23,781 nucleotides of DNA. Source: a virus. The notes beneath the pieces were generated by a model, which worked only from the letters and a program-made list of their open reading frames with translations, had not been told where the DNA came from and searched no databases. Location of the stretch: positions 1-23,781 of IMG/VR virus record IMGVR_UViG_3300025101_000190; one strand, given 5' to 3'. How positions within the stretch are numbered: the stretch's first letter is position 1; each line of letters begins with the position of its first letter. The translations under genes and the position numbers were made by a program. Positions 1 to 23,275 of the stretch are shown here, one piece after another.

Positions 1-3000
1 TGTTATTTTTCCAGTCAAAACTTACTGGTCTTAACTCTTTTATTGCATCTAGTCCAAAAGTTATATCTGCTATGTTATCTTTTTTTCTTTCATCAGATAG
101 TGAAACAAGTGAACGATAATAAACAGCACCAGCATAGCTTACAAAAAATTCAAATTCGCTATTTGAACTATCATAAACATAATAAGTTTCAACAGAAGTA
201 GATCCTCCACCAACACAAGTTAGTTGAGCATGGTCTGAACCAACTCGTTTTTTTAATGTAAAACCTGAATCTGTGAGATTATCCGCAGTTTTTCCTATAA
301 GTAATGTACCTGCTGAATTTATTCTCACTCTTTCAGATCCATTAGTAAAAAATGTAATAGGATGGGCTGTTCCTCTTGAAATCTGAAAAACATTAGCATC
401 TGCATAAATAGTCGAATTCCTACTTCCACTTATACCAAAATCTATTCTTGAGCCATTGCTACTATCTATTTGCATAAATGCAGTACCACTATCTTCGTTT
501 ATAGCTAAACCTGTTCCTGAAAAAGATAAGGATAATGGGTCTACAGTTGTAGTACCTATACCAAGATCTCCTCCATTAGTAATGCTTAACGCGTAAGATG
601 CGTTAGTATGAAAATCAAAAGAGTTTGTGCTATGATTATAAGATATTATTCCTCTATATCTATCCTCACCACTTGTACCATCAGCAAAATAAATTGATCC
701 AGAAGCATCATCTGCGGTTACTAGAGTCATTCCATGATTTACTCCAGATCCGGTACCACCTAATACTAAATCGTCAGCTGATGTCCAATAATTTGAAGGA
801 GTTAATCCATTTAATCCAATTCTTTCAGAACTATCAATAATCAATGATGTAGCATCAGCATTATCGTCTATACCTTGAGAAGTAAAAGCACCGCCTACAG
901 TTAGATCAGAAGGTGTAGTTAATGCACCACTTAACTTAGCAGAAGTTACTGTGCTATCAGCAAGGGTAGTTGCTAAAGCAACATTACCTGTGCCATCAAA
1001 AGAAACTGCATTAGCAGTAACATTACCAGTCAAAGAAAAGTTTCTGCCTGTAGCTAAAGCAGTTGCTGTTGCAGCATTGCCTGATGTATTTTGATTACCT
1101 GCACTATTTACTCCAGGAAGATCTATATTTGCTGTACCATCAAAAGATACCCCACCAATCGTTCTAGCAGTAGCCAAAGCAGTTGTAGTATCAGCTACTA
1201 CTCCTGATAAATTATTAATAAAAGTGTTTGTAACTCTTGCGTCTATAGCGGCATTTGCCCTTGTATCAGTATAATATAAATTACTTGATCCTTCACTTAG
1301 ATCATCGGTATCTTTAGTGCCTAATCTTGTATCAAATCTTGCATCGGTATAGTAAAGATTAGTACCTTCTGATAAATCTGATGTAGATTTATTGCTTAAG
1401 TCTAAATTTGATCCTGTTTGTAGATTAACTCTTGCATCAGCTCTTGCGTTAGTATAATAAAGATTACTTCCTTCTGCAAGATCTCCAGTATCTTTAGTAC
1501 CTAGTCTTGTATCAAATCTTGCATCAGTGTAATATAAATTAGTACCTTCGCTTAAATTACTAGTACTAAAATTAGAAATACTAGAAACAGTACCCGTAAC
1601 ATTTCCTTCTAAATTTGCAACTAAAGTTGCGACACTATATCCAGTGCCAGAAGTATTAACTGTAGTTGTAGGTTCTGCTTGCAAATCTTTAAATAGTTTA
1701 AATTTGCCACTATCGTTTGCATCTCTAAATAAACCAGCATAGAGATCTTGTGATCCTGATGTATCATATAAACCATAAAAACCAATATCTACAGAATCTG
1801 CAGAATCGTTATTTTTAGCTAATTTTATTAATGGATCTTCTACGCTCAAAGTATCTGTATTTACTGTAACAGTAGTTCCATTTACAGTTAAATTTCCTGC
1901 AATAACAACATTGTCTGGTAAACCTATAGTAACGCTAGATGATTCTGATCCAGATCCACTAACTTCAACCTCATTAGTTGTTCCAGTAATATCTTGTACA
2001 TAATTACCTGTTGTTTTTGATCCTAAAGCAACAGAATTGTCATCTACGCTTGCAGCATTTACATTTAAAGCATTTACAAAAGACTGTGTAACCCTAGCAT
2101 CAATCGCTGAATTAGATCTTGCGTCAGTATAATATAAATTACTTGATCCTTCACTTAAATTATCAGTATCTTTAGTACCTAATCTAGTATCGAACCTTGC
2201 GTCTGTGTAATATAAATTAGTTCCTTCTGATAAATCACTTGTAGACTTACCAGAAAAAGCTGTATTAAATCTTGTTGCTGTATAGTATAAATTTGTACCT
2301 TCTGAAAGATCAGACGTAGATTTGTTTGATAAATCTAAGTTTGATCCTGTTTGTAAATTTACACGCGCATCAGCTCTTGCATTAGTATAGTATAAATTAC
2401 TTGATCCTTCGCTTAGATCATCTGTGTCTTTAGTACCTAATCTAGTATCAAATCTTGCATCTGTATAATATAAGTTTGATCCTTCTGTAAGATCTCCAGT
2501 ATCTTTAGTACCTAATCTAGTATCGAACCTTGCATCTGTATAATATAAATTGCTTGATCCTTCAGAAACTTTATCTGTATTAAAACTTATATTTGCAGTA
2601 CCGTCAAAAGAAGTATTATTAATAGTTCTTGCTGTTTGTAAAGCTGTTGCTGTAGACGCGTTACCAACTAATGCAGAGGTTACTTGATTAAATACTACAT
2701 TATCACCTGTTCCAACGCTTTGACCAATAGCAAAAGTAACGCTATTACTAGATGCCGTAGAAGTTACACCTGTTCCGCCTAACAAAGAAAGTGTTTCACT
2801 ATCAAGATCAATAGCTATTGTATTTGATCCATCGCTTATATCAAGATCCTGTATTGTGACTTGATTATCTACATATGCTTTTATTGATTGTTGCGTTGCT
2901 AATGCAGTATTGCTATTTGAACTAAAATTATCTTCATCTAAAATACTTGTAACAGTCTGTCCACTTGTGAAACTTAAACTCGATATTCCGTTAACAGTTC

Positions 3001-3244
3001 CACCATTTATATCTACTGTATTATCAGCAGATATAGAAAAAGGTAATGTGATCCAGCCATTATTTGTAGAATTTCTTATTTTTGCTAAACTGTTAGTCGT
3101 ATCAATCCAAATTTGATAGGCAAAAGTTGTAGAAGGTTCAGATGTGCTTGAATTATTAGATACTATTGCCTGTAAAACATTGTTAAGATCTGATCTAAAA
3201 TCTGCTCCGGATTGATTATCTAAAACGTAGTCGTGAGTTGCCAT
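1..3244 (-). CDS. Large tail fibre with C-terminal S74 chaperone domain (partial, runs off left edge)
   Basis: An uninterrupted minus-strand frame starts at the ATG at 3244 and is still open at base 1, giving at least 1081 residues (starts MATHDYVLDNQSG). It is the distal receptor-binding fibre of the tail. Residues about 227-383 and 565-675 hold ten copies of a repeat built on SEG(S/T)NLYYTDAR. Between them (about 445-550) is a Gly/Val/Asn/Thr-rich block containing GNLTVNGTTVTVN and VEDPLIKLAKNN, of a kind common in marine phage fibres. Near the left edge the sequence reads LSDERKKDNI (Ser1050-Asp1051), the opening motif of the endosialidase-type intramolecular chaperone (peptidase S74), which trimerises the fibre and then cuts itself off at that serine. 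Only about 32 residues of this domain are inside the window. No clear Shine-Dalgarno lies before the start; it is 20 bases after the preceding gene. Confidence 0.88.
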   Translation of the reverse strand, partial: MATHDYVLDNQSGADFRSDLNNVLQAIVSNNSSTSEPSTTFAYQIWIDTTNSLAKIRNSTNNGWITLPFSISADNTVDINGGTVNGISSLSFTSGQTVTSILDEDNFSSNSNTALATQQSIKAYVDNQVTIQDLDISDGSNTIAIDLDSETLSLLGGTGVTSTASSNSVTFAIGQSVGTGDNVVFNQVTSALVGNASTATALQTARTINNTSFDGTANISFNTDKVSEGSSNLYYTDARFDTRLGTKDTGDLTEGSNLYYTDARFDTRLGTKDTDDLSEGSSNLYYTNARADARVNLQTGSNLDLSNKSTSDLSEGTNLYYTATRFNTAFSGKSTSDLSEGTNLYYTDARFDTRLGTKDTDNLSEGSSNLYYTDARSNSAIDARVTQSFVNALNVNAASVDDNSVALGSKTTGNYVQDITGTTNEVEVSGSGSESSSVTIGLPDNVVIAGNLTVNGTTVTVNTDTLSVEDPLIKLAKNNDSADSVDIGFYGLYDTSGSQDLYAGLFRDANDSGKFKLFKDLQAEPTTTVNTSGTGYSVATLVANLEGNVTGTVSSISNFSTSNLSEGTNLYYTDARFDTRLGTKDTGDLAEGSNLYYTNARADARVNLQTGSNLDLSNKSTSDLSEGTNLYYTDARFDTRLGTKDTDDLSEGSSNLYYTDTRANAAIDARVTNTFINNLSGVVADTTTALATARTIGGVSFDGTANIDLPGVNSAGNQNTSGNAATATALATGRNFSLTGNVTANAVSFDGTGNVALATTLADSTVTSAKLSGALTTPSDLTVGGAFTSQGIDDNADATSLIIDSSERIGLNGLTPSNYWTSADDLVLGGTGSGVNHGMTLVTADDASGSIYFADGTSGEDRYRGIISYNHSTNSFDFHTNASYALSITNGGDLGIGTTTVDPLSLSFSGTGLAINEDSGTAFMQIDSSNGSRIDFGISGSRNSTIYADANVFQISRGTAHPITFFTNGSERVRINSAGTLLIGKTADNLTDSGFTLKKRVGSDHAQLTCVGGGSTSVETYYVYDSSNSEFEFFVSYAGAVYYRSLVSLSDERKKDNIADITFGLDAIKELRPVSFDWKNN
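1222..1552 (-). repeat. Second cluster of NLYYT-type fibre repeats (4 copies)
   Basis: Four in-frame copies of a 25-35 residue unit, SEGTNLYYTDARFDTRLGTK or variants, lie back to back. The second copy carries an insertion reading NLQTGSNLDLSNKSTSDL. The last copy ends ANAAIDARVTNTF instead of FDTRLGTK, marking the end of the array. At DNA level the units are very similar, so recombination between them is plausible. Confidence 0.85.
2095..2566 (-). repeat. First cluster of NLYYT-type fibre repeats (6 copies)
   Basis: Six in-frame copies of the SEG(S/T)NLYYTDAR unit. Copy 3 carries the same NLQTGSNLDLSNKSTSDL insertion as a copy in the other cluster, and copy 4 is divergent (TATRFNTAFSGK). The array ends in SNSAIDARVTQSF, matching the end of the second cluster. 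The two clusters therefore look like a duplicated segment separated by about 540 bases. Confidence 0.85.
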
Positions 3245-11565: not shown

Positions 11566-12819
11566 TTACGAAGCTACACAGAAAGAAACAGCATGTCGTA
11601 CAGCTGTATCTACACTTTGCAATGCAACGACCCTTACGGTACCAGACTTAGAGTTGCTGAAAGGATCAACAACTATGTCTAATCCACCAAACATACCAAT
11701 AAGCAAGTCTCTCATGTTACCAAAAACATAGTTGTTTACAGTAAGCTGAGCAGATACATTAGTTCTGTACCCGTTTACTTGATCACCAACAGCTACAAAT
11801 TGTGCAGTGTTAGATGCTTTTTCAGTTGTTTTTAAAGTACCATAGTTTGTTGGGTGCATAATGTACATTAAGTCACCAACTAACGCGTTGTCAACAGCAA
11901 CTGCAGTTTCAATGCTTACAATTTCTGCAAACGTTGGAGCAGCAGCACTTGACAAAGATACTGTGTTAATTCCAGTAGTATTAGTAATACCTTTTGGATT
12001 ACCAGAACTTCCGCTACCTTCTAAAGCCGCATTATCAATAGCAATTGCCATAGAAGCTGCAAGATCATCTCTGATCAAGTTTTCAACATCTAAAGATGAT
12101 TGAGTAAGAAGTTGTCTAGTAACTTCAGTAAATGCACCTAAAGTTTTAGGAGTTAAACTAACGTTTCCGATAGTCATTTCTGATTCACCAGCGTCACCAC
12201 CTTCACTACTAATAAACGCAGCAGTACTTGCAGCAGTCTTTTTAGGGATTTTTACATCGCCTGTCAAGCCTCTGAGCATAGTAGCTGAATCCATTACAGC
12301 AGATTTATTTCTTAATACGTCAATAAAATCTCCGCCTCTGTAATCTTCTGCTATTAGATCAGAATCATCAGACGCGTTAAGATCACGTTGGTTCCAAGAT
12401 GCCATAACTTCTGGTGGAAGCATGATACCTTGTGCAGTTCTGCCGTATACTTTAGCAGCTTCTTCTGAACATTCAAATTCATATTCAGCTTCAGCTTGCG
12501 CCCTTCTGTCAGTAGGATTAGCTAAAGCGTTAATAGCTTTAACTAAAGAAAATCTACGAACATCCTTTTTAGTCATTCCAATTTCAGGAGTTTCTAAAGG
12601 TTTATTGTCTTCAATGTTTTCTAACAATATTCCTCTAAACTCATCAACTGAAACGCCATCTGAAATTGCTTTATCCGCAAGATCTCTTCTGTTATGTTTA
12701 GTAGCAAGATCTAAAATTTCTTTTGAGTTTCTTTGAAATTCTTGTCGAGCACTAACAACAGCTTCTGATCTAACTTCTTCCAAGTCAAGTTCAGGTTTTT
12801 TATCAATAACTTCTGTCAT
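11566..12819 (-). CDS. Scaffold-major capsid precursor from internal in-frame start
   Basis: The ATG at 12819 (Met434 of the fusion) begins MTEVIDKKPELDLEEVRSEA, exactly at the junction between the protease domain and the scaffold region. A ribosome site, AAGGAC, lies six bases upstream. A separate 417-residue scaffold-capsid protein is therefore likely, providing the many capsid copies needed while the full 850-residue fusion supplies a few protease copies. The logic resembles the nested lambda C/Nu3 genes, but here the nested product also includes the capsid protein. This is an inference from sequence; the ratio of products cannot be seen. Confidence 0.68.
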   Translation of the reverse strand: MTEVIDKKPELDLEEVRSEAVVSARQEFQRNSKEILDLATKHNRRDLADKAISDGVSVDEFRGILLENIEDNKPLETPEIGMTKKDVRRFSLVKAINALANPTDRRAQAEAEYEFECSEEAAKVYGRTAQGIMLPPEVMASWNQRDLNASDDSDLIAEDYRGGDFIDVLRNKSAVMDSATMLRGLTGDVKIPKKTAASTAAFISSEGGDAGESEMTIGNVSLTPKTLGAFTEVTRQLLTQSSLDVENLIRDDLAASMAIAIDNAALEGSGSSGNPKGITNTTGINTVSLSSAAAPTFAEIVSIETAVAVDNALVGDLMYIMHPTNYGTLKTTEKASNTAQFVAVGDQVNGYRTNVSAQLTVNNYVFGNMRDLLIGMFGGLDIVVDPFSNSKSGTVRVVALQSVDTAVRHAVSFCVAS

Positions 12820-14118
12820 TTTATTGTCCTTGTTAATAGGTTTATCTTTAGAACGTCCTACACCGACAGCCATTGACTGATCAGCTGGCACTGAGACAAT
12901 ACTCACTTCCATAGGACTATGTCCTACAATATATGCTGGCTTACCATTAATGTTATCAGCTGCACGTTCCATCTTGTTTACGACGTAGCCCACGCTGATA
13001 TTTTGACGAATACCATCTACTACATCTTTAAATACTTCATCAGCAAGCGCACTTCGACCAAAACGCACTATCGCAACAGCTCTATTTGTTGACTGATCAA
13101 GTTTATATTGTTCTATCACTCCAATTTGTTGCCTCATGTCGTGATCTAACAGTAAAGGAGCTCTTCCTGAAGACATGAATTCCATGTCAACATCTCCTTC
13201 TTTATGAGAAAGAATTTCCATACCAAAGTCCCTTTCTACAGGTTCTTCTGACGATACGCCTATTCTTACTCTCCTTTTTTCTTCATCTATAAATGAAGCT
13301 CGACTAAGATCAATAGTTCTATAAACGACTTCCATGTCGCCTAATCTATCTTCTTCGTCTTTATAACCTGACTCTTCTAAATCTAGATCATCAAGTTCAT
13401 TTTCTACTATACCCTCTTTTTTAGCAAAACTAACAACTACAGCGTCATCAGTTTCACTAACGTCGAGGATATGTCTATCTTGTTTATCCATAGATTTTAC
13501 CTCGTGAGTTATAGTTTCAATATTTGGATCCTGAGATCCAAAACCTCTAATTGGACTTATTTTAGTCAAAGTACTAAATTTATGTCCTACCCTTACGTCT
13601 GTTGCTTCTCCACCTCTATATAATTGTATCAGAGCAGCAGGATCTTCTGGTGTTCCTGTCAATGTTAGTTCTGATCCTGGAATATTAATTTTTCCATCTC
13701 TTTCAACTTTTATAATTTTTCCCCTAGCTCGACCGCCAGAACTTCCCCAACTTACAAAGTCTCCGACTTTTAAATCGTTAGGACCTGCTCTTAAACTTCT
13801 TTCATCTTCATTTTTCATTTGATTCACCAATTTTCTTGACCAAGAAAAACCTGCATCACCACCCCATAATGCCCATGCAATACGACCATTTGATGGATAG
13901 CCATCTTCACCAGGTTTAAAACCCTCGGCTTGTTTATTGTTTTCGTGTCTACTAAAAAAGCTAAACATTCTTTTAATAGTAGAATCCGATAAATCTTCGC
14001 CAGCTATAATTTGTCTAGCTCTAATGGCACCTACTCTAGTTCCACCTCTACCGTGTTCTTCTCTCCAATCTAAGCCCTTACGAGCTTCTTCTTTCATACC
14101 ACTATTCGGTTTCGCCAT
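11566..14118 (-). CDS. Fused prohead protease - scaffold - HK97-fold major capsid protein
   Basis: An 850-residue multidomain protein. Residues 1-100 hold a module with KPNSGMKEEARKGLDWREE, FFSRHENNKQAEGFKPGE and NGRIAWALWGGDAG. Residues 113-187 are a small barrel (VGDFVSWGSSGGRARGKI). Residues about 262-420 are an HK97-type prohead protease (S78) with the likely catalytic set His326 (LLLDHD), Ser375 (NISVGY) and Glu404 (PMEVS). Residues about 440-510 are a charged helical scaffold or delta region. Residues about 515-850 are an HK97-fold major capsid protein (AAFISSEGGDAGESEM, LEGSGSSGNPKGI). The protease would cut the scaffold off assembled capsomers. It overlaps the portal stop by 17 bases; AAGG lies upstream of the ATG. 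Protease-capsid fusions occur in other phages, but this one adds two N-terminal modules. Confidence 0.88.
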   Translation of the reverse strand: MAKPNSGMKEEARKGLDWREEHGRGGTRVGAIRARQIIAGEDLSDSTIKRMFSFFSRHENNKQAEGFKPGEDGYPSNGRIAWALWGGDAGFSWSRKLVNQMKNEDERSLRAGPNDLKVGDFVSWGSSGGRARGKIIKVERDGKINIPGSELTLTGTPEDPAALIQLYRGGEATDVRVGHKFSTLTKISPIRGFGSQDPNIETITHEVKSMDKQDRHILDVSETDDAVVVSFAKKEGIVENELDDLDLEESGYKDEEDRLGDMEVVYRTIDLSRASFIDEEKRRVRIGVSSEEPVERDFGMEILSHKEGDVDMEFMSSGRAPLLLDHDMRQQIGVIEQYKLDQSTNRAVAIVRFGRSALADEVFKDVVDGIRQNISVGYVVNKMERAADNINGKPAYIVGHSPMEVSIVSVPADQSMAVGVGRSKDKPINKDNKMTEVIDKKPELDLEEVRSEAVVSARQEFQRNSKEILDLATKHNRRDLADKAISDGVSVDEFRGILLENIEDNKPLETPEIGMTKKDVRRFSLVKAINALANPTDRRAQAEAEYEFECSEEAAKVYGRTAQGIMLPPEVMASWNQRDLNASDDSDLIAEDYRGGDFIDVLRNKSAVMDSATMLRGLTGDVKIPKKTAASTAAFISSEGGDAGESEMTIGNVSLTPKTLGAFTEVTRQLLTQSSLDVENLIRDDLAASMAIAIDNAALEGSGSSGNPKGITNTTGINTVSLSSAAAPTFAEIVSIETAVAVDNALVGDLMYIMHPTNYGTLKTTEKASNTAQFVAVGDQVNGYRTNVSAQLTVNNYVFGNMRDLLIGMFGGLDIVVDPFSNSKSGTVRVVALQSVDTAVRHAVSFCVAS
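12817..12831 (-). promoter_or_regulatory. Internal ribosome binding site of the scaffold-capsid product
   Basis: AAGGAC at 12831-12826, then six bases (AATAAA), then ATG at 12819-12817. Spacing and core are as good as those of ordinary genes in the window, and the site falls precisely at a domain boundary. Confidence 0.7.
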
Positions 14119-15613
14119 CTTCGGTACCTTGTATATCTGGTTCTACAGGCATTTTAACACCATATGGTTGAAATGCTGTCCTTATTCCATATTGATCTGC
14201 TAACCTAGATTCTCTGTCGTGCTGTTCAAAAAGTTCTTCTACATCTCTTCCATAGTTAGATTGTACATCTTGAAAAGTAACTAACCCTGATTGCATGCCG
14301 CTTATAGATGCCATCATTTCCTTTTGAGGATCTACCCAAGAAAAAGATCTTGGTATAAAGTTTGCAGCGTTTTGAAATTTTTCGAATCTAGATATTGGCA
14401 ATGGTTGACCGTTTGGATTTGTACTAATTTCACCTGTAAGTATTGCCATTTCTAACCATTTTTCAAAAACAGGTCTGACAAAATGTTCTATTGTAAATTT
14501 TTGATATAATCTATACATCTCTCTATCTTCTAATGCACCTGCTCTTAAAGAGCTATAATTAACAGAGCTTAAATCGTTTGTTAAAGCATGATAAGAAATA
14601 TTTAATCCCGAAGCTATACTCCTTAAAACTTGCGTTGTAAAAGATTGAAAAGCGGTACTTGGATGATCAGGATCAAAAGTTTTAAAATCAGTTCCGGACG
14701 GTAATTGTTCAAAAGTACCTGCCTCTGCGTTCATTAAAGGTACGTACTCTTCATCCTCACCATCGCCTACATATTGATCACCATCCGGAGAAACAAAAAA
14801 TCCCATTTTAGATGCGGCTGTTCTAGCAGCTACAATTTCTGCTTCCATATAGCCGTTTAACATTTTAATATTTGACATTGCAGAAGATGTAAAAGGTACA
14901 CCTCTATTTTGTTCTGGTCTAGTCGGCATATATGCGTGTATTAATTTATCAGCAGCTACTCTAATATGTCTTTGCTTTCCGGTAGTGTATTCTTGATCAT
15001 AAGGATGTTTTTGGAATAAGTGATAAGCAACAGGCTTGTCAAACTGATCAACTTCTACTCCCATTTTTATTTGATTGGCACTGCCTCCAGCTTGTCGGTT
15101 TTTATCTTCATCAAGATGATCAGCTTCTAAAAACTGAATTCTATAACCATATTTATACTTTTGCGCGCTATTGTGTCTTATTAAAACTTCGCCATCTCTA
15201 CACAAAGATTCAACAAATAATTTTTGACAATCTATAAATGACTGTCTTTCATTTACTGTACAATGTCCTAATTTGCACCAATCTTTCCATTTTTCTTCAA
15301 TAACTCTATTAGCAAGCATATCTAACGATCCATCATCGTTTCTAGCTTTCATACTTAATCTGATACCACTATGTCCAACAACATTACTAACCATGAGGTT
15401 TAAATATCTTTGAACATAACTATCATTTCTAGCTAAATCCCTTGATCTGTCTCTTAAAGTTTTAAGTTGTCCTTTTATTTCAGCGTCAGCTGATGTTGAT
15501 GTTTGTAGAAAGTCAGAAAACAATCTACCACCTTGCGCACCGTTATATCTTCTTACTTTGCTTATTTTAAGTTTATTACTTTTTCTAGTTCTAAATCTAT
15601 CGTACCAAGCCAT
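14102..15613 (-). CDS. Portal protein (lambda B family)
   Basis: A 503-residue portal that forms the dodecameric DNA gate at one capsid vertex; lambda B is 533 residues. Diagnostic blocks include ARNDSYVQRYLNLMVSNVVG near the N-terminus, DGEVLIRH, RIQFLEADHLDEDKN, HAYMPTRPEQNRGVPFTSSA, and ASGLNISYHALTNDLSSVNY followed by SSLRAGALEDREMYR, which corresponds to the family's Y-S-S-x-R-x-G/A motif. The C-terminus is acidic (EPDIQGTEDGETE). It begins on a TAATG overlap with the gpW-like gene and ends inside the start of the protease-capsid fusion, so the three are probably coupled in translation. Confidence 0.92.
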   Translation of the reverse strand: MAWYDRFRTRKSNKLKISKVRRYNGAQGGRLFSDFLQTSTSADAEIKGQLKTLRDRSRDLARNDSYVQRYLNLMVSNVVGHSGIRLSMKARNDDGSLDMLANRVIEEKWKDWCKLGHCTVNERQSFIDCQKLFVESLCRDGEVLIRHNSAQKYKYGYRIQFLEADHLDEDKNRQAGGSANQIKMGVEVDQFDKPVAYHLFQKHPYDQEYTTGKQRHIRVAADKLIHAYMPTRPEQNRGVPFTSSAMSNIKMLNGYMEAEIVAARTAASKMGFFVSPDGDQYVGDGEDEEYVPLMNAEAGTFEQLPSGTDFKTFDPDHPSTAFQSFTTQVLRSIASGLNISYHALTNDLSSVNYSSLRAGALEDREMYRLYQKFTIEHFVRPVFEKWLEMAILTGEISTNPNGQPLPISRFEKFQNAANFIPRSFSWVDPQKEMMASISGMQSGLVTFQDVQSNYGRDVEELFEQHDRESRLADQYGIRTAFQPYGVKMPVEPDIQGTEDGETE

Positions 15614-16203
15614 TAGAATTTAACCCCTACATTATTTCCTGATCTTTGTTTATTTTTTATTCTAGCTTTTTTGATTTCTTTTAGATATTCTGCTTTATAA
15701 GTAGATCTAAAAGTCATTAATTCATCTACACTCATTCTAGATAATGATCTTCCTGCTATAGAAAAAGATGATTGATCAATAGTTGCTCTATTTTCTAACA
15801 CAGCTTCTATATTATCTAAACATTTTTTTGCGTGGCTTCTTAAATCAGCATTAGTATTTGCAAAATTTGTTTCTATAGTTGTTCTACCAGAATCTATTTC
15901 TATTCTTTGAGAATCAGAAGATCTAGTGATGAAGGCTTTCCAAACATAATCTCCTGCTGTATAACTAGTGGTACTTGATGATGAAACTTCGATAAAATAA
16001 GTATCGGAAGCTTCTACGGCAGTTAAAGTAAATTTGTGTGAACCGCCTCCACCACTATCCTCATGAAATTCATACGTTAAAGCGTATGATCCAATAGGAT
16101 AATCATTGTTAAGATCTTCTCTTTTCCATGTCCATCTATCTCCTGCGACTAGGGTATCTGGCTCTTGAGTTGGATAATTTGCTCTATCGAATAAATTTGA
16201 CAT
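15613..16203 (-). CDS. Head-tail joining protein with gpW-like C-terminus
   Basis: A 196-residue protein. Residues 1-115 are a beta-rich domain (AGDRWTWKREDLNNDYPIGS, ALTYEFHEDSGGGGSHKFTL, DYVWKAFITRSSDSQRIEID). Residues about 120-196 are helical: SHAKKCLDNIEAVLENRA, then SFSIAGRSLSRMSVDELMTF and a basic tail. The S-I-A-G-R-S-L-S/T-R turn between two helices is characteristic of gpW-like head completion proteins, but lambda gpW is only 68 residues, so this is a larger two-domain version. It lies directly before the portal gene, as W does in lambda. No good ribosome site precedes the ATG. A TATAAT-like hexamer lies 38 bases upstream, but no matching -35 was found. Confidence 0.72.
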   Translation of the reverse strand: MSNLFDRANYPTQEPDTLVAGDRWTWKREDLNNDYPIGSYALTYEFHEDSGGGGSHKFTLTAVEASDTYFIEVSSSSTTSYTAGDYVWKAFITRSSDSQRIEIDSGRTTIETNFANTNADLRSHAKKCLDNIEAVLENRATIDQSSFSIAGRSLSRMSVDELMTFRSTYKAEYLKEIKKARIKNKQRSGNNVGVKF

Positions 16204-16254: not shown

Positions 16255-17361
16255 TTAACTATTTTTATATGATTCAATACTTAAATTATTTTGATCTAGA
16301 ATATAAGTATCTGAGGGATGTATATCTAAATCATTAAAACTACTAATAAGATCTAAGCTTAGCATTTTCTTTTGTCTTCCTTTAGGATGATCTGTAATTT
16401 TACAACTATTCCAAACTTTATCTCTATCTAAATGATCATAATCATTGCCCGGTTTAATATAATTTTCTATCCATCTTATATAATCGCACATAACATCTTC
16501 TGTATTGTAAGGAAGAGAACCAGTATCTTCGTATATTTTTTTTACAAGATCATCAATAGGTTCTTTATCGCTTATTAGTTTCGCACACTCTATTGCGTTA
16601 GAGCCATAAAAAAAATCTGATTCTGTATCTATAAGATCAGGAAACCAATCAGCAATATCTGCTAAAAAAGCAGCATATTGAAATTTGTATCTTACAAGAC
16701 CCATCTTGTTATTCCAGTCATACATAACATTTGCTAATTCTCTAAATTTTATATTTTGTTTTCTTTCTAAAGTATCTATAACAAGGTTAATTAAACTTGG
16801 AAGGTAATTAACTATAAAATAATCTCCACCTCTTTTATATTGCGTTTTTAAATAATCAGGGACTTTTGGGAATTTAGGAAACTGATAACCTACGGACGTG
16901 TAAAATGTTTTATCATAGCTTTTAACTAATTCTTTTATATCTGTTATATCACTACATTGCCATAAATCAAAAAGAATTGTATTGTGATATCCGCTTGGTT
17001 TTTTTGCGTAATTTATAGCACTTCCTGTCAGTCTATGTATCATAAAAATATAAAGCCAGGTTTTAAGATCATGTTTTGTACCTTTCCATTTTTTTATTAT
17101 TTCTCTTCGTTCATTTGTACAAAAACCCATTTGTATTTTTGTATAGTAAGGGTGTGTACTTTGATCTTGATAAAAAATATCGTTTATGATCTGACTAAAA
17201 CCAGCATACTTTCTTTCAACTACATCATAAAGTTCAACTTCTTTCATAAGATCATCTTCTATATCACAATCTTTGTGATCTAAAATTCCTAAATTACAAT
17301 GGCTTTGTTGTTTTTTTGCCATTTTGTAATATCTGATAAATTCCTCGTAATACTTATTCAT
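16255..17361 (-). CDS. Putative amino acid:DNA transferase-like base-hypermodification enzyme
   Basis: A 368-residue protein without signal or membrane segments. Conserved-looking blocks are HRLTGSAINYAKKPSGYHNT (109-128), FYTSVGYQFPKFPKV (153-167), YKRGGDYFIVNYLP (175-188), MYDWNNKMGLVRYKFQYAAF (213-232) and the acidic DIADWFPDLIDTESDFFYGS (235-254). This combination resembles, from memory, the amino acid:DNA transferase (ADDT) group associated with thymine hypermodification in phages, where an amino acid or amine is attached to an activated 5-hydroxymethyl group of the base. I cannot run a profile search. An alpha-glutamyl/putrescinyl thymine pyrophosphorylase-type helical enzyme is the main alternative. 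It overlaps the PLP gene by eight bases and is the last gene of the seven-gene modification block. Confidence 0.5.
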   Translation of the reverse strand: MNKYYEEFIRYYKMAKKQQSHCNLGILDHKDCDIEDDLMKEVELYDVVERKYAGFSQIINDIFYQDQSTHPYYTKIQMGFCTNERREIIKKWKGTKHDLKTWLYIFMIHRLTGSAINYAKKPSGYHNTILFDLWQCSDITDIKELVKSYDKTFYTSVGYQFPKFPKVPDYLKTQYKRGGDYFIVNYLPSLINLVIDTLERKQNIKFRELANVMYDWNNKMGLVRYKFQYAAFLADIADWFPDLIDTESDFFYGSNAIECAKLISDKEPIDDLVKKIYEDTGSLPYNTEDVMCDYIRWIENYIKPGNDYDHLDRDKVWNSCKITDHPKGRQKKMLSLDLISSFNDLDIHPSDTYILDQNNLSIESYKNS

Positions 17362-18205
17362 TCCAATCTCTATAACTGTTTATGTTTTTATATAAGTTTT
17401 TATTTTGCAAAACAGGTTCTGTTCCAACATTCCAAAACAAAATATCTTTATTAGTATTTTTAGGTATATATTTCCAAACCTTAGCATCATAAGAATCTAC
17501 AGATGGAAAAGGTGGCATATTATTTTTACTTTCTGATGTTTGAAAAGGCAAAGGTTCAGATATTACAGAAGATCTTCCTAACTCACCTTCCTTTAAATTT
17601 CTTGCAACTGCAACAGAAATAAATTCTGAATTAGGCCAAGCTAATTGCAAGGATCTTGATAAAACACCTGTTGATATTGCTGTATAAACAATATCAGGTT
17701 CTTTTATTTTTTTTGCTACTTTTATCATTCCACATACAACAAGTTTATGATTTAATCCTAAAGGTACAAAGTAGTGTCCATGATCCTCTGCGTATTTTTT
17801 TGCGATTCTGTTTAAATTAGGCATAGCAGCTATTCTATGAAATATAGGTTTAGCACCTCTTTCTATACAACAAGCTTGATGTTCGCTTATCTTTTTAGAA
17901 GATGGCATAAATAAAATAACGTTTTTATTGTGCCTTTTTGCAACATCAATTATAGAAACTCCAGCTAAACCAACTCTTGGTTGTACATAAACAATAGTAT
18001 CTTCTTTTACTTGACTTAATAACGCATCTGCTCCTCGACATTTTGTACCTACCAAAAGATCATCTCTTACTACTCTTACATTTTCATAAGTTTTTATCAC
18101 AGGATCTGGATAAGGATCTTCCCAACCTTTTAACAGATCAAGATATATATTTTTATATTTTTGATCTTTATTTGTGCCGTCTTGTATGTGATTATTATGA
18201 CTCAT
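17354..18205 (-). CDS. Fold-type II PLP-dependent enzyme (tryptophan synthase beta-like)
   Basis: A 283-residue soluble enzyme. VVRDDLLVGTKCRGADALLS (45-64) matches the ACC deaminase/cysteine synthase-like pattern in which the lysine of G-T-K-x-R (Lys55) binds pyridoxal phosphate. DTIVYVQPRVGLAGVSIIDV (69-88) is the following substrate-binding strand and helix. TAISTGVLSRSLQLAWPN (175-192) sits where the phosphate-binding Gly/Ser/Thr loop is found. The rest of the fold is present, though the C-terminus is shorter than in free-standing amino acid enzymes. Such enzymes act on the beta or gamma carbon of amino acids. In this cluster it could supply or process the amino acid placed on the base (inference). 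It overlaps both neighbours by 8-11 bases. Confidence 0.7.
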   Translation of the reverse strand: MSHNNHIQDGTNKDQKYKNIYLDLLKGWEDPYPDPVIKTYENVRVVRDDLLVGTKCRGADALLSQVKEDTIVYVQPRVGLAGVSIIDVAKRHNKNVILFMPSSKKISEHQACCIERGAKPIFHRIAAMPNLNRIAKKYAEDHGHYFVPLGLNHKLVVCGMIKVAKKIKEPDIVYTAISTGVLSRSLQLAWPNSEFISVAVARNLKEGELGRSSVISEPLPFQTSESKNNMPPFPSVDSYDAKVWKYIPKNTNKDILFWNVGTEPVLQNKNLYKNINSYRDWNE

Positions 18206-19181
18206 CGTCTAAAAACCTACCCCAATCTTTTCTTCTATAATGTGTCGGAGCTATATGAACACTTGAGCTCAACTCCATTATTTCTTTTGCATATGATTCA
18301 GGATCCATTGTGTACCAATGAGGTGGAGGAGACACAACATGTCTATAATTTTGAAACAAATATCTTTTCCATTCATTTGTAAGATCTCTTCTTTCTGTTT
18401 CTGATCCAAAAAACGGTGTTCCTTGATAAAAACCTGTTTTTGGTATTCTTCTAAATTGGTATTCTACGGGAACAGGACAAGCTAATTCTACTCTTATGTC
18501 ATGTCTTTTTTGTAATTCATAACTTCCTTTGATCAAAGAATTAAGCATTTCTTTCCAATCAGTATTATTTCTAATTATATGGTGCCTTATATCTATTGAT
18601 CCAAAACACAAAGTCATTCTCACTATATTCTTAGGTACTTTAATGTAGTCAAACCAGTGTTTCCTTTTTAGTAATCCATACAAAGTTGATCCATCTTTTC
18701 TAAGTATAGAATCGTATCGTTTAGAAAAAGCTATAGAATGTGAATCTCCATAAGTAAGACCGTTAAAGTCTAATAAATTATAATCGCTATATTTTATAGA
18801 ATCTACATTTTTACAAAACTCAGTAACTTGATTGCACCAGTTTTCGGTTATTTTCTCGTATGTACTTTTTGCATTTAAACGTTGTTTAAAAAGTAATCCA
18901 TAATCTGGCATATCATGATCTAAAGAAACAACATTTTTATGTTCCATAACTGTGTTAAATTTTTCATATATATCCTTGTTAAGACCGCCAAAAAGATTTA
19001 AGGATCCTTTAAAATTAACTCCATGATCTATATATACGGTTTCATTTTTTAATATGCTTTTTGTACATTTATGGTTTATTTCTGCTTCTAACATTTCTGA
19101 CCAGCAAAAACTCCACCCGTACGTATGAGATTTAGAATTAACTGGTATATTTGCTAAGGGATTCGTAATCGCATTTTTCAT
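18195..19181 (-). CDS. SGNH/GDSL-like protein with GDSH and DIRHH motifs
   Basis: A 328-residue protein. The N-terminal 140 residues (GWSFCWSEMLEAEI, VYIDHGVNFKGSLNLFGGLN, SLDHDMPDYGLLFKQR) form a distinct domain. From 142 it reads LTYGDSHSIAFSKR, with block I Ser147. LCFGSIDIRHHIIR (191-204) takes the place of the G-x-N-D block, with Ile where Asn is usual. SSSVHIAPTHYRR (305-317) resembles the C-terminal His block. The central RIPKTGFYQGTPFFGS (245-260) is very conserved-looking. SGNH enzymes are esterases or acyl transferases. The substrate here is unknown; a step in building or trimming the base adduct is one possibility. AGGAGA eight bases before the ATG supports this start, despite a 44-base overlap with the deaminase gene. 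Confidence 0.55.
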   Translation of the reverse strand: MKNAITNPLANIPVNSKSHTYGWSFCWSEMLEAEINHKCTKSILKNETVYIDHGVNFKGSLNLFGGLNKDIYEKFNTVMEHKNVVSLDHDMPDYGLLFKQRLNAKSTYEKITENWCNQVTEFCKNVDSIKYSDYNLLDFNGLTYGDSHSIAFSKRYDSILRKDGSTLYGLLKRKHWFDYIKVPKNIVRMTLCFGSIDIRHHIIRNNTDWKEMLNSLIKGSYELQKRHDIRVELACPVPVEYQFRRIPKTGFYQGTPFFGSETERRDLTNEWKRYLFQNYRHVVSPPPHWYTMDPESYAKEIMELSSSVHIAPTHYRRKDWGRFLDDES

Positions 19182-19617
19182 AATGTATATCTCCTAATTT
19201 AAAAATATTTTCCGTAATAACAAACGACTCTCTCCAATAATCACTGACTATTGGTTTTGAGCATGTAAAAACTTGTTTAATTCCAACTTGTACAATTGCT
19301 TTTGCACATTCGCTACAAACATCTAAACCATATACAAATAAAGAAGAATTTTCTAAACTAACACCGTTTAAAGTTGCGTGATATATACAATTCATTTCAG
19401 CGTGTACTATATATTTATATTTAACTTGTCTATTTTCGTATAAATTTTTATCATCATGAAAGGATCTTGGAAAGCCATTATATCCTTGTGATAGCACTTG
19501 ACCTTTGTCGCCTATACAAATAGCACCTACTTTTGTAGATGGATCTTTGCTCCAAGTAGAGATTTCTTTAGCTAATCTAAAGTATCTATACTTCCAAATA
19601 TTCGAAATGTCTCTCAT
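19138..19617 (-). CDS. Deoxycytidylate (dCMP) deaminase
   Basis: A 159-residue zinc-dependent deaminase converting dCMP to dUMP. Zinc and catalytic motifs are HAEMN (His72, Glu74) and CSECA (Cys101, Cys104). WSKDPSTKVGAICIGDKGQV (22-41) and SQGYNGFPRS (43-52) are the nucleotide-binding landmarks of dCMP deaminases. Length is normal for the ComEB/T4 cd family. Product dUMP is the substrate for the thymidylate-synthase-family enzyme encoded immediately upstream, with which it overlaps by 32 bases. The family is often feedback-regulated by dCTP and dTTP; whether that holds here cannot be seen. Confidence 0.92.
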   Translation of the reverse strand: MRDISNIWKYRYFRLAKEISTWSKDPSTKVGAICIGDKGQVLSQGYNGFPRSFHDDKNLYENRQVKYKYIVHAEMNCIYHATLNGVSLENSSLFVYGLDVCSECAKAIVQVGIKQVFTCSKPIVSDYWRESFVITENIFKLGDIHYEKCDYESLSKYTS

Positions 19618-20239
19618 AAATATGTAAGTTTTGTACTTGCCAAAATATATTACCTACTTCTATACATACTAAATCACTGATCATAGTAAGTAAGTATTCT
19701 TGCCAAGCATAATCGTTTTTATAACCGTATACTACATCGTTACTTCTCATTTGCACGACGCAATGTAATTTATTATTTCTAATATAGTAAGTAACAGCGT
19801 TAGTACAAATAAAATCATTTTTGCCGTTACTTTTAAATTCTTCCCAAATAGATGGTCTTGTATAAACTAAACAAGCTCTTCTCGTGTCTTTGTTTTCAAG
19901 TAATTCATCTACAACTTTACTAAATTGATTGTAATACTGATCAGAAAAAACAAGGCGTCCATAATTACTATTTACTTCTCCGTGAGAGTTAGCTGTATAT
20001 TTCCATGCTGCGGGTATAATTTTATAAGGCAAGTCTTTTATATTTGTACTTTGACTTTTATACCATTCTAGTTCTGCGTTAATATATTCTTTATTAACAT
20101 TTCCAAATATAGTATTTTGATCACAAACAAAACTAGCCGGGATCATTTCTATAGTTTTTGATCCTGTCTTATCTATAGTAAATTCTTTATTCTTGTATGC
20201 GTTAATGAAATAATCTTTTATATTACTTGTCTTGTCCAT
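19586..20239 (-). CDS. Thymidylate synthase-family nucleotide (hydroxy)methylase
   Basis: A 217-residue enzyme, shorter than bacterial ThyA (264). Cys145 in DFICTNAVTYYIRNNKLHC is the likely nucleophile, QMRSNDVVYGYKNDYAWQEY (163-182) is the substrate loop, and NLHIYERH (204-211) is the family's H-x-Y motif. It could make dTMP, or 5-hydroxymethyl-dUMP or -dCMP, from methylene-tetrahydrofolate. The residue that reads the pyrimidine (Asn177 in E. coli ThyA) aligns without gaps to Asp176, with Asn175 adjacent, so specificity is ambiguous. The adjacent dCMP deaminase favours a dUMP substrate, and the surrounding genes favour hydroxymethylation. A purine-rich AGGGGGAAAA precedes the ATG. It overlaps the upstream gene by 17 bases. 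Confidence 0.82.
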   Translation of the reverse strand: MDKTSNIKDYFINAYKNKEFTIDKTGSKTIEMIPASFVCDQNTIFGNVNKEYINAELEWYKSQSTNIKDLPYKIIPAAWKYTANSHGEVNSNYGRLVFSDQYYNQFSKVVDELLENKDTRRACLVYTRPSIWEEFKSNGKNDFICTNAVTYYIRNNKLHCVVQMRSNDVVYGYKNDYAWQEYLLTMISDLVCIEVGNIFWQVQNLHIYERHFEYLEV

Positions 20240-20510
20240 CTATTTTCCCCCTGTGAAATAAAATTAAAAATGTCGCATAGTTAATAAGATCTTTTGCATT
20301 GTCTTCTATACCTTCAAAGTTTGGCTCACCATCTGCTTCTATTAATGACCATAGTCTAGTTGTTTTTGTATGTATCATTTCCATAATAGATAATGCACCG
20401 CGTGGATAATAATCAACTTGTTTGATTCTAGATTCTTTATTTTGATAGTCTTCTGATTTCTTTTTTAGTATCTCTAAACATTCAACTAATACTTTTTCTG
20501 CTTCAATCAT
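20223..20510 (-). CDS. DUF1599 / nucleotide modification-associated domain 1-like protein
   Basis: A 95-residue all-helical protein. Its pattern, KKKSEDYQNKE near residue 17, then MEMIHTKTTRLWSLIEADGE (43-62) and DNAKDLINYATFLILF (70-85), follows the DUF1599/Nmad1 family: K-x-x-D-Y near the start, K-x-x-R-x-x-x-L in the middle and D/E-x-x-D-L-I-N-Y-A at the end. The family is related to MazG-type pyrophosphohydrolases and occurs beside genes for modified nucleotides. It may hydrolyse an unmodified or modified dNTP. The gene overlaps its neighbours by 8 and 17 bases, so it is part of the same operon. Confidence 0.65.
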   Translation of the reverse strand: MIEAEKVLVECLEILKKKSEDYQNKESRIKQVDYYPRGALSIMEMIHTKTTRLWSLIEADGEPNFEGIEDNAKDLINYATFLILFHRGKIDGQDK

Positions 20511-20904
20511 TTTTGATCTCCTTTAATGTTCCTACGTTGTCTTGATGATAAGGTGCTTTCCATAATTCTGGTTTTATAAGATCAGGTAAATTATGCTTGT
20601 TTTCTCTTTTATCATTAATATCTTTTTCTTTTATCATATTTGCAAAATGTACTCTTGCCCAAGCTTTCTCAATATCTACATCAAAACTATCTAAAGTACC
20701 TAGTGCTACAACTACTAAATCTATAAAAGCATCAACGATATCGTCTGCGTTGTTTAGATGTCTTGCATCTTGAAGTTCTGTTAGTTCTTCTTTTATGAAA
20801 TTGATTCTAAAATCTAAATATTCTTTTTTTAGATTAGGTTCCATATTTCTAACGGTGTTAGTAATATCAAACCTCTTATTAAGGTCTTTTATATCTTTGA
20901 TCAT
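20503..20904 (-). CDS. All-alpha NTP pyrophosphohydrolase (MazG/PRA-PH-like)
   Basis: A 133-residue helical protein. FIKEELTELQDARHLNNADD (36-55) followed by IVDAFIDLVVVALGTLDSFD (56-75) gives the E-E-x-x-E and D-x-x-x-D metal-binding pattern (Glu39/40/43, Asp58/62) of the phosphoribosyl-ATP pyrophosphohydrolase/MazG superfamily. The end, DLIKPELWKAPYHQD, is similar to phage members of that family. It would cleave a nucleoside triphosphate to monophosphate and pyrophosphate, perhaps removing a competing dNTP such as dCTP, dTTP or dUTP from the pool (inference). It is the first gene of the seven-gene block. AGGAGT six bases before its ATG is a strong ribosome site. Confidence 0.8.
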   Translation of the reverse strand: MIKDIKDLNKRFDITNTVRNMEPNLKKEYLDFRINFIKEELTELQDARHLNNADDIVDAFIDLVVVALGTLDSFDVDIEKAWARVHFANMIKEKDINDKRENKHNLPDLIKPELWKAPYHQDNVGTLKEIKND

Positions 20905-20949: not shown

Positions 20950-20983
20950 ATGTAAACTTTTATTTACATTTATTTGTTTACAT
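20950..20983. repeat. Three TTTACAT-type sites in the divergent intergenic region
   Basis: ATGTAAA (20950-20956) and TTTACAT (20963-20969) form a perfect inverted repeat with a six-base centre. A further TTTACAT lies at 20977-20983, exactly 14 bases after the second, as part of a longer direct similarity (TTTACATTTATTTG and TTTACATTTGTTTA). The third copy contains the -35 hexamer of the plus-strand promoter. The arrangement looks like an operator for a transcriptional regulator. Confidence 0.5.
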
Positions 20984-21005
20984 TTGTTTATATATATCTT
21001 ATAAT
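20977..21005 (+). promoter_or_regulatory. Near-consensus sigma70-type promoter for the two plus-strand genes
   Basis: TTTACA at 20977-20982, a 17-base spacer, and a perfect TATAAT at 21000-21005. The first gene starts 32 bases after the -10 element with AGGAG upstream of its ATG. Only one -35 position differs from consensus. AT-richness makes chance -10 matches common, but the ideal spacing and correct placement support it. Confidence 0.65.
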
Positions 21006-21037: not shown

Positions 21038-21247
21038 ATGACTTTTACTAACCGAGAAATCAGAGCAAAACTTAGAGAAATGTTTAATAACAAACTTATT
21101 TCAGATGTTGAGTATGTTCACGCTGAGATGTTTGTTAATGCTTTGTTTTTTACTAAAAATTCAAACCATAAGGAAATAACAAGAACGCTTGAAAAAAGAC
21201 CTTTAGGTTTTGAGTCTGGTGGTGATAGATATAGTATAAATTCTTAA
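21038..21247 (+). CDS. Small plus-strand protein of unknown function, 69 residues
   Basis: Starts MTFTNREIRAKLREMFNNKL and ends GGDRYSINS. It is probably helical in the first half, with a basic amphipathic segment and a hydrophobic YVHAEMFVNALFF stretch, then a basic C-terminus (TRTLEKRPLGFESGGDRYS). No family recognised. It has a strong ribosome site (AGGAG) and a good promoter, and is one of only two genes on the plus strand, so it may be expressed at a different time from the structural operon. A small DNA-binding or host-takeover protein is possible but unsupported. Confidence 0.7.
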   Translation: MTFTNREIRAKLREMFNNKLISDVEYVHAEMFVNALFFTKNSNHKEITRTLEKRPLGFESGGDRYSINS

Positions 21248-21257
21248 GGAGAAAATT

Positions 21258-21458
21258 ATGATCGTACTTAGAAAATATAAAGAGCCTGATGCCAAGTGGG
21301 AACAAATAACACTTGAAGAAGCTATTGATAAACTAGAAGGCTCAGGCTATTGGAAAAAAAATACAGTCAAAGATATGCTTGAAGATGGTCAAAAACTTTG
21401 GTCGCCTTACGCATTTTTTAAAAAACAAGATCAAAAAGAAAAAGAGCCACCTTTTTAG
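21258..21458 (+). CDS. Small plus-strand protein of unknown function, 66 residues
   Basis: Starts MIVLRKYKEPDAKWEQITLE and ends KKQDQKEKEPPF. The middle, LEEAIDKLEGSGYWKKNTVK, looks like a helix-turn-helix-sized element, followed by LWSPYAFFKKQ and a charged tail. No family recognised. It lies 10 bases after the previous gene and has the same leader, AGGAGAAAATTATG, which suggests an expression cassette. Its TAG stop lies within the loop and the first base of the descending arm of the terminator hairpin that follows. Function cannot be inferred. Confidence 0.7.
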   Translation: MIVLRKYKEPDAKWEQITLEEAIDKLEGSGYWKKNTVKDMLEDGQKLWSPYAFFKKQDQKEKEPPF

Positions 21459-21471
21459 GTGGCTTTTTTTT
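21441..21471. terminator. Bidirectional intrinsic terminator between convergent genes
   Basis: GCCACC (21446-21451), loop TTTTTA, GGTGGC (21458-21463) and T8 (21464-21471) on the plus strand. Read on the minus strand the same hairpin is followed by TCTTTTTCTTTTT. It therefore stops plus-strand transcription from the two small genes and minus-strand transcription from the large terminase gene. The seven-gene block downstream thus needs its own promoter. Confidence 0.9.
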
Positions 21472-23275
21472 ACCAATTATTTATCCAATTACTTTTTCTT
21501 TGTATAGATCTTCTTTTGCTTTGTTTTTGATCTGATATTTGATTATTTTCTATATATTGCTCAATTCTTTCATAATTAGGTTGGATAATATGTAAAGCAG
21601 AAACAGCGTAAACAAAAGTATCTAGTGCCTCATTTCTTTGTGTTTTTTTAACCCAAACTAATTTTTTTTGTCCTTGACTAAATTTAGTAATTCTTTTTTC
21701 TGATGTAAGTTGTTTAAAATATTCTTCATCTACATGGTTGGGAAAATGTATAACTGTTTCTTCTGCTTGTAATCTTGAATAAATAAATTCTTTGCCTGTA
21801 TCTGATCCTACTGGGTATAACACAAATCTTTCTCTGCCTATAAAAGAAGGTCTACCTGCTATTGGTTTATTTGCTTGAGATTGACCTTTAATAGCAAAAA
21901 CTTTACGTGCTTTTCTTTGATCACAAAAAACATAAACTTGCTGTGTATGATGACCACCTGAGTCGATACAAGTACAAGCTATTCTTAGCTTTTTATTATC
22001 TTCTCTTTTATATCTATATCTAAGATAAGTATCAAGATCCTGCCAAACATGATTAGAAGAAGGATCACCGTAAAAAATTTGATAGTCAATAACCCATGCT
22101 TCGTTATTATGTCCCCAACCTATAACTTGTGCTTCTAGTCTATCGTTTTGCACATCAACTCCGCATGTAATCACTAAAACTTCGTTAGGTATTTCTATAT
22201 TGTCATATTGCTCCCTTTTTTCTAGTAGCGCATTGTATTCGATACTTTCGCCAGGATCATCGAATGATTTTCCTAGAGCTGTATTAACCCATGTCCTTAA
22301 CATTTCAGGTTGGCTTTTAACAGCGTAAAAATCTATTGCCATATCTTTCCATTTTCTCCAAGGGCTATACAATTCAGAAATATGAAAGCCGGCTGTTTTT
22401 TTTGTTTGTTCTTTAGCTATCCAAACTCCTTTCAATAACATGTTTTGTTTTTCTTCTTCAGGTATTACTTCTTCACAGAATTTACAGTGATATTTTGCAG
22501 TTTCTGGTTTACCACTTTCCCACCTTACATATTCCCACTCTAATACTTGAAACTCTTTGCAATGAGGACACGGAACATGATAATACCTTTGATCAGACTC
22601 TTCAAAAGCGGTTTCTATTCTTGATATTGATTTTATTGTTGGCGTACTTGTAATAAATACTTTTCTATTCCAAAAAGTTGTAGTACGTTTCATCGCTAAG
22701 GAAATAGGATCTCCTTCTGTTCCTGCAGATGCGTCATATCTGTCTACCTCGTCACATAATAAAATACGTATAGGTCTTGAAGCTAAACCAGCTGCTGAAT
22801 TAGATCCAACTATATTTATATTTCCGCCTGGAAATTGTTTTGATAATACTGTATTGCTACTATCTTTACTTCTTGGATCTTTAACTTTTTTCCTAAGTCC
22901 ATCACAATCACGGATCATATTAGCAAGTCTATCTTTTGACCATGCTTGTGCCATTTGTAATGTAGGTTGCAAAACTAGAATAGGCGATGGGTCCTGATCT
23001 ATATAATAACCTACTATATTGTTTAGTATTTCTGTAGCTCCAACTTGCGCACTTTTCATAAACACTATAGTATTTATTCTATGATCATTAACAGCGTCCA
23101 TAATACCCTTTTGGTAAGGCGCTCGAGATGTTCTCCAAATACCAGCTTCCGAAGAAGATTCAGGAGAAAGTACTCTATTTAGATCTGACCACTCAGATAC
23201 AGTAAGCTCAGGAGGTGGACTCCATATCTTTTTTATCGACGAGAGTGTTTTCTCTATATTCTTCTGGTATTCCAT
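21470..23275 (-). CDS. terL: Terminase large subunit (GpA family)
   Basis: A 601-residue DNA-packaging motor and nuclease. Residues 74-81 (KSAQVGAT) are the Walker A-like motif and ILLCDEVDRY (171-180) is Walker B. A zinc-binding pair, CPHC (236-239) and CKFC (264-267), is typical of the lambda gpA/GpA family. The RNase H-like nuclease begins at CGVDVQNDRLE (Asp374) with CIDSGG (Asp438), and a late motif is EALDTFVYAVSAL. The family cuts at cos-type ends in lambda, so a cos mechanism is likely but not shown. It overlaps the small subunit by 68 bases and lacks a strong ribosome site, suggesting coupled translation. The bidirectional terminator begins directly at its stop. Confidence 0.95.
   Translation of the reverse strand: MEYQKNIEKTLSSIKKIWSPPPELTVSEWSDLNRVLSPESSSEAGIWRTSRAPYQKGIMDAVNDHRINTIVFMKSAQVGATEILNNIVGYYIDQDPSPILVLQPTLQMAQAWSKDRLANMIRDCDGLRKKVKDPRSKDSSNTVLSKQFPGGNINIVGSNSAAGLASRPIRILLCDEVDRYDASAGTEGDPISLAMKRTTTFWNRKVFITSTPTIKSISRIETAFEESDQRYYHVPCPHCKEFQVLEWEYVRWESGKPETAKYHCKFCEEVIPEEEKQNMLLKGVWIAKEQTKKTAGFHISELYSPWRKWKDMAIDFYAVKSQPEMLRTWVNTALGKSFDDPGESIEYNALLEKREQYDNIEIPNEVLVITCGVDVQNDRLEAQVIGWGHNNEAWVIDYQIFYGDPSSNHVWQDLDTYLRYRYKREDNKKLRIACTCIDSGGHHTQQVYVFCDQRKARKVFAIKGQSQANKPIAGRPSFIGRERFVLYPVGSDTGKEFIYSRLQAEETVIHFPNHVDEEYFKQLTSEKRITKFSQGQKKLVWVKKTQRNEALDTFVYAVSALHIIQPNYERIEQYIENNQISDQKQSKRRSIQRKSNWINNW

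Follow-up and report, generated by a model that had tools for sequence, protein, structure and literature searches.

What does a block of seven overlapping genes, lying between the terminase and the portal genes of a virus, contribute to that virus? The question is raised by IMG/VR record IMGVR_UViG_3300025101_000190, the whole of which (23,781 bases, open at its left end) was analysed and is called the window below; it is probably a fragment of the genome of a small marine phage. The seven open reading frames (ORFs) at 16255-20904 are all on the minus strand, with neighbours overlapping by 8-44 nt, and encode, in coding order, a MazG/PRA-PH-type hydrolase, an Nmad1-like protein, a thymidylate synthase (TS)-family protein, a dCMP deaminase, and three proteins designated P3 (328 amino acids, aa), P2 (283 aa), and P1 (368 aa). 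Hydroxymethylcytosine phages are a classic case of DNA camouflage, and the block is very probably a hydroxymethylcytosine hypermodification cassette in which the glucosyltransferase has been replaced by P1, P2, and P3. That 5-hydroxymethylcytosine (hmC) is hypermodified by this system is well supported. A sequence-only reading of the window had delineated the same seven genes between terminase and portal, and had taken them for a DNA base-hypermodification block. Both claims held, the second through the conservation of the cassette, its hydroxymethylase, and its position, in T4-like viruses, at the T4 beta-gt locus. The Pfam check of each protein, suggested by the sequence-only reading, matched the supply genes and PALP (Nmad1 and PALP under the cut-off), and gave nothing for the 328- and 368-aa proteins.

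The hydroxymethylase and the identity of the base

The TS-family protein (217 aa; 19586..20239, minus strand) matched the Pfam thymidylate synthase family at 3e-21. The profile of its own family, however, matched T4 dCMP hydroxymethylase (1b49) at 2e-109 (368 bits), and the next families were CMP hydroxymethylase (1e-28) and the thymidylate synthases (2e-26 or weaker), with all other families scoring below 104 bits. Residues C145 and D176 of the window protein correspond to the catalytic C148 and the cytosine-specifying D179 of the T4 enzyme; both are invariant in the alignment, and both are kept in all 115 relatives scoring above 250 bits. Asp179 of T4 was shown to mediate cytosine recognition and N3 protonation, and the D179N substitution lowers kcat by up to ~3600-fold (PMC6400193). 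The same profile provided an internal control with phages 44RR and 25: each has a second, TS-like protein, and these scored 57 and 61 bits, against 342 and 339 bits for the dCMP hydroxymethylases. Because both residues are present in all 115 relatives, the base is predicted to be hmC rather than hydroxymethyluracil, and the protein is identified, by its sequence, as a T4-type dCMP hydroxymethylase. In a 305-kb viral contig (L100, 4678-5976), the hydroxymethylase runs into a C-terminal extension resembling a dUTPase.

The sequence-only reading had proposed a different product, 5-hydroxymethyl-dUMP (hmdUMP), reached from dCMP by way of dUMP. This route was rejected, since the hydroxymethylase profile, Asp176, and the 44RR/25 control are all of the dCMP type. 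It belongs to thymine hypermodification as in phages ViI, M6, and phiW-14, in which an amino acid is put onto hmdUMP after its synthesis, incorporation, and activation. PLP (pyridoxal phosphate) enzymes are known in that field, the pool hydrolase and the dCMP deaminase of the block are consistent with it, and ADDT and HMUDK-helical proteins are among the viral structures nearest to P1 once its close homologues are set aside. A thymine pathway is nonetheless extremely unlikely here: the synthase is directed at cytosine rather than uracil, with an invariant Asp176; the P-loop domain of the 5-hydroxymethyldeoxyuridine (hmdU) kinase (PF18748) was not found in four carriers of the cassette, some of them fragments; six carriers gave no ADDT match in Pfam; and the locus is that of hmC phages.

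Three further genes make up the supply half of the block. The MazG/PRA-PH-type NTP pyrophosphohydrolase (133 aa; 20503..20904, minus strand; PF01503 2.4e-10, phrog_671 1.9e-18) probably cleanses the nucleotide pool, and may have a dCTPase-like role. The Nmad1/DUF1599-like, nucleotide-modification-associated protein (95 aa; 20223..20510, minus strand) scored just under the cut-off of PF07659 (2.2e-4), and its relatives in cassette loci are 43-64% identical. The dCMP deaminase (159 aa; 19138..19617, minus strand) was matched by PF00383 (8e-17) and phrog_174 (8e-36). The supply domains TS, PRA-PH, and dCMP deaminase are shared with the validated 5hmC carbamoyltransferase cassettes found by MetaGPA (PMC8670742), an analogy that lends support to reading the whole block as a hypermodification system. 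The two differ in what accompanies these domains: in a Pfam search the carbamoyltransferase domains PF02543 and PF16861 were not matched in the window's seven genes, which encode P1-P3 instead.

Three putative tailoring proteins

P3 (18195..19181, minus strand; phrog_13881 2e-69) was modelled by AlphaFold2 (AF2) with a pLDDT of 89.8 and a pTM of 0.86. Residues ~133-326 form an SGNH-fold domain, which was aligned with 2hsj at Z 12.7 over 171 residues and with the O-acetyltransferase PatB (8tlb) at Z 11.7. The GDSH motif at 145-148, containing the block I Ser, and H309, the block V His, are invariant in 40 sequences. These matches bear out the SGNH-like call of the sequence-only reading.

The N-terminal domain of P3 was approached through its relatives. 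P3 of the window gave no Pfam match, T4-Gluco-transf included, and a search of the PDB with the P3 profile gave nothing useful. Sub-threshold matches to the Pfam beta-glucosyltransferase (beta-GT) family PF09198 were found in 12 of 40 P3 relatives; when six large viral records were scanned, the P3 N-terminus was the sole PF09198 match of the whole record in three (G002, G008, and G005; E 5e-4 to 7e-3), and the other three gave no match. Aligned by hhalign, P3 and the beta-GT family scored 35.5; no unrelated family pair exceeded 24.7, and none of 30 column shuffles exceeded 22.2. These lines agree, each being weak alone, and suggest that the P3 N-terminal domain weakly resembles the hmC-binding half of beta-glucosyltransferase. 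The Pfam matches had prompted a reading of P3 as a plain glycosyltransferase (GT), which was set aside because residues 133-326 were modelled as SGNH; with this C-terminal domain, P3 does not have the GT-B fold with its nucleotide-sugar domain.

Homologues of P3 that are 27-30% identical over 96% were found in the Aeromonas phages 44RR2.8t, 31, and 25. These phages have a dCMP hydroxymethylase and lack glucosyltransferases, and the decoration of their hmC was left open (PMC2993671). Unlike the carriers of the cassette, they gave no match to P1 or P2 (tblastn). P3 in 44RR (ORF233c) is fused to a C-terminal domain of the HMUDK-helical type (hhalign prob 96%, E 4e-9, 237 columns), and P1 is a remote relative of that superfamily. 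Phage 25 (L004, 3776-5957) has, immediately upstream of its P3 homologue, a GT-like gene and one for a UDP-galactopyranose mutase (PF03275, 5e-54), and may for this reason put sugar on hmC as well.

Could the cassette itself, then, produce a further glycosylated hmC, with P3 either tailoring the sugar (as an esterase or acylase of a sugar on hmC, for example) or being itself divergent but glycosyltransferase-like, and the sugar enzymes encoded elsewhere? The weak beta-GT-like domain, the mutase of phage 25, and an epimerase or GT-like gene near the cassette in some carriers are all consistent with this. Where a GT-B enzyme would have its nucleotide-sugar half, however, P3 has its SGNH domain, the seven-gene set contains no glycosyltransferase, and the PLP and ADDT-like partners do not fit, so that glycosylation is an unlikely outcome.

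P2 (17354..18205, minus strand) was matched by phrog_7093 (2e-35) and, under the cut-off, by PALP (1.4e-5). K55, the Schiff-base Lys of the N-terminal motif, is invariant in 37 sequences, and is kept in the homologues from Erythrobacter phage R6L and Microcystis phage Mae-JY30, which exceed the PALP cut-off. P2 is thus a fold-type-II PLP enzyme, as the sequence-only reading had it, with PLP binding and a PLP-dependent reaction predicted from sequence; comparison of its profile with the PDB gave nothing useful. The relatives of P2 in cultivated phages occur only in DNA-modification contexts. In R6L (L001, 6807-9238), a P2-family PLP domain is inserted between DNA methylase motifs, behind a ParB domain, in a single polypeptide; in Mae-JY30, the P2 relative adjoins ParB and methylase genes. 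These contexts are evidence, independent of the cassette, that the P2 family acts in DNA base modification.

P1 (16255..17361, minus strand) was modelled as an all-helical protein (AF2; pLDDT 91.5, pTM 0.90) with a fold like that of the HhH DNA glycosylases. The top rows of VIA-align were all HhH-type DNA glycosylases, with AGOG at Z 9.0 over 203 residues, a modest value for a helical fold, and Foldseek returned no significant match in the PDB. Beyond closer homologues, the BFVD matches comprised an ADDT-annotated protein (13% identity, E 5.7e-3, TM 0.40-0.45), an alpha-glutamyl/putrescinyl-thymine pyrophosphorylase, and the hmdU-kinase helical protein of phiW-14; a P1 homologue that is 49% identical carries the ADDT annotation in UniProt. 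X329, a protein present in many carriers and not in the window, matches P1 at prob 84% and is a probable P1 paralogue, as judged from this profile match. The ADDT-like call of the sequence-only reading drew some support from the fold, through the BFVD matches at these TM values, and failed for the sequence: P1 gave no ADDT match in Pfam, hhalign with a 32-sequence ADDT alignment gave prob 0.2%, and neither P1 nor X329 could be linked to ADDT profiles of 5 or of 32 sequences. Compared with the HMUDK helical family, P1 showed no link to 4 sequences, and prob 31% over 246 columns when 50 were used. Searches of the PDB with the P1 and X329 profiles gave nothing useful. Taken with its model, these comparisons make P1 most likely an ADDT/HMUDK-like protein that flips bases, with a putative catalytic role.

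Recurrence of the cassette and its place in the genome

IMG/VR was scanned with P1, with P2, and with a P3 alignment, giving 50, 80, and at least 590 loci, respectively. All seven families stand together in 26 loci of the P1 and P2 scans, and many more contigs are partial. Among 76 further loci selected by P3, where many contigs break off inside the cluster, the counts were 66 for P1, 60 for P2, 54 for the deaminase, and 53 for the hydroxymethylase. In a set of 196 loci carrying P3 plus P1 and/or P2, these proteins are usually accompanied by the same nucleotide-supply genes. Since the same genes recur together in the full loci, the partial contigs, and the P3-selected loci, the seven-gene block is a recurrent cassette, beyond chance. 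A second siphovirus lineage (L159 and L162), whose P1-P3 are 55-69% identical, has the order terS-terL-cassette-joining-portal, with the cassette placed between terL and the joining gene as in the window. At 3053-3358 of L159, the Nmad1 slot is occupied by a dATP/dGTP diphosphohydrolase N-terminal-domain protein (PF18909, 3e-28).

Most carriers have the cassette surrounded by genes of the T4 replisome. At least one of gp41, gp43, gp44, gp45, gp46, gp47, gp62, and UvsX was found in 146 of the 196 loci, and the next recognised gene after the cassette is UvsX in 73 and gp45 in 20. The usual T4-like order is gp43-MazG-Nmad1-gp42-deaminase-[UDG-like]-P1-[X329]-P2-P3-UvsX-gp41, with the order P3-P2-P1, as in the window, as an alternative. 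T4 itself has the order gp43-imm-42-beta-gt-(segA)-uvsX-40-41, and comparison of the two shows that the cassette occupies the beta-gt site in T4-like viruses. The region between the polymerase (gp43) and UvsX is a documented seat of hmC-modification genes (PMC8056088), and phmmer detected neither a beta- nor an alpha-GT in the 196 loci. The sequence-only reading, which had suggested a gene-neighbourhood comparison, missed both this locus and the wide spread of the cassette. The likeness to T4 gp42 and beta-glucosyltransferase thus extends from the dCMP hydroxymethylase to the site between gp43/gp42 and uvsX-gp41 and, weakly, to the P3 N-terminus, whereas SGNH, PLP, and ADDT/glycosylase-fold proteins stand in place of the glucosyltransferase. 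RB69 is likewise an hmC phage without the T4 glucosyltransferases, and has its modification genes between polymerase and UvsX; its arabinosyl-hmC, however, is made by sugar chemistry with an arabinosyltransferase (PMC6024577). Among cultivated phages, 40 records, nearly all of T4-like Aeromonas phages, have P3 relatives, and tblastn gave three weak matches to P2 and no match to P1.

A small UDG-superfamily-like protein is encoded just upstream of P1 in many cassettes (L109, 5437-5859, and relatives, 36 loci; Pfam UDG E 0.0012, below the cut-off), and comparison of its family profile with the PDB gave nothing useful.

The breadth of this distribution bears on whether P1-P3 decorate phage DNA at all. 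P1 might instead be a true DNA glycosylase acting against unmodified host or rival DNA, and the operon one of general nucleotide metabolism in which P2 and P3 serve metabolism or the cell surface; the fold of P1 does resemble 8-oxoG glycosylases, metabolism has many SGNH and PLP enzymes, and the UDG-like protein accompanies many cassettes. Yet the viruses in which P1, P2, and P3 occur with one another and with the hydroxymethylase are very diverse, small siphoviruses among them, a P2-like domain sits inside a DNA methylase, and the P3 of 44RR is joined to a domain from the helical hmdU-kinase family. This explanation is accordingly very unlikely.

In the window, the block is flanked upstream by a GpA terminase large subunit (21470..23275, minus strand; PF05876 7e-95), and downstream by a head-tail joining protein (15613..16203, minus strand; phrog_5774 1.7e-38) and then a lambda-family portal (14102..15613, minus strand; PF05136 5.6e-99), as assigned by Pfam and phrog profiles. 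Judged by terminase, the cultivated phages that come closest are the CRP-821-type roseophages (~50% identity). In CRP-821, terL, the joining protein, and the portal are contiguous and the cassette is absent; the block is therefore an insertion relative to CRP-821. Two small plus-strand ORFs of 69 and 66 aa (21038-21458) stand in the gap between terL and the cassette. They are accompanied by a strong -35/-10 match (20977-21005) and by a stem resembling a terminator (21445-21464), and are possibly an independently expressed unit. Further away, a single ORF (11566-14118) encodes an 850-aa capsid polyprotein with a Tudor-like domain, a prohead-protease-like region, and an HK97-type capsid, and a tail protein (2-3244) contains repeats of the form SEGSNLYYTDARFDTRLGTKDT and a C-terminal S74 chaperone domain cut by the contig end.

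Proposed chemistry and its meaning

A pathway can be proposed from these assignments. By homology, the MazG-like hydrolase and Nmad1 would tune the nucleotide pool, the gp42-type enzyme would produce 5-hydroxymethyl-dCMP, and the dCMP deaminase would channel dCMP to dUMP and dTMP. Hydroxymethyl-dCTP would be polymerised into DNA, and after replication P1, in many relatives together with X329, would bind the DNA and flip the base. The SGNH domain of P3 would then act on the 5-hydroxymethyl oxygen, most simply by O-acyl transfer, and the acyl group on hmC could be either the final decoration or an activated leaving group. P2 would provide or trim an amino-acid-derived group, which the ADDT-like P1 may attach. 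The decorated cytosine would take the place of T4 glucose in protection from restriction. The specific order and chemistry of the P1-P3 steps proposed here are rather doubtful. The final base may be a new one. Nearly as likely as not is the idea of an undescribed cytosine base, common in uncultivated aquatic T4-like phages, for which hmC would pass through an amino-acid-based route of the ADDT/PLP type that needs no P-loop kinase; a chimeric beta-GT-like/SGNH enzyme would activate or acylate the hydroxymethyl group. A search of open-access papers, which leaves out most subscription papers, turned up none that describes these genes in combination.

Several observations weigh against the hypermodification cassette as read here. 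P2 of the window scores below the PALP cut-off. The block III Asn of P3 is displaced relative to the expected G-x-N-D, the motif being G[SN]ID[IV]R with a different spacing. The profile match of P3 to beta-GT is weak (prob 34%), and its PF09198 matches are sub-threshold and come from related proteins. The match of P1 to the HMUDK profile is likewise weak, and at the level of sequence P1 is not linked to ADDT. Further partner genes may lie outside the fragmentary window.

The cassette offers a testable answer to how the DNA of phages 44RR, 31, and 25 is decorated, and the P3 relatives in 44RR and 25 allow work in culture. It is relevant to restriction and glycosylase-based defence, and to enzymes for labelling or sequencing modified cytosine. 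With its three uncharacterised enzyme families, the system probably stands for a cytosine chemistry that is new and extends across hundreds of environmental viruses.

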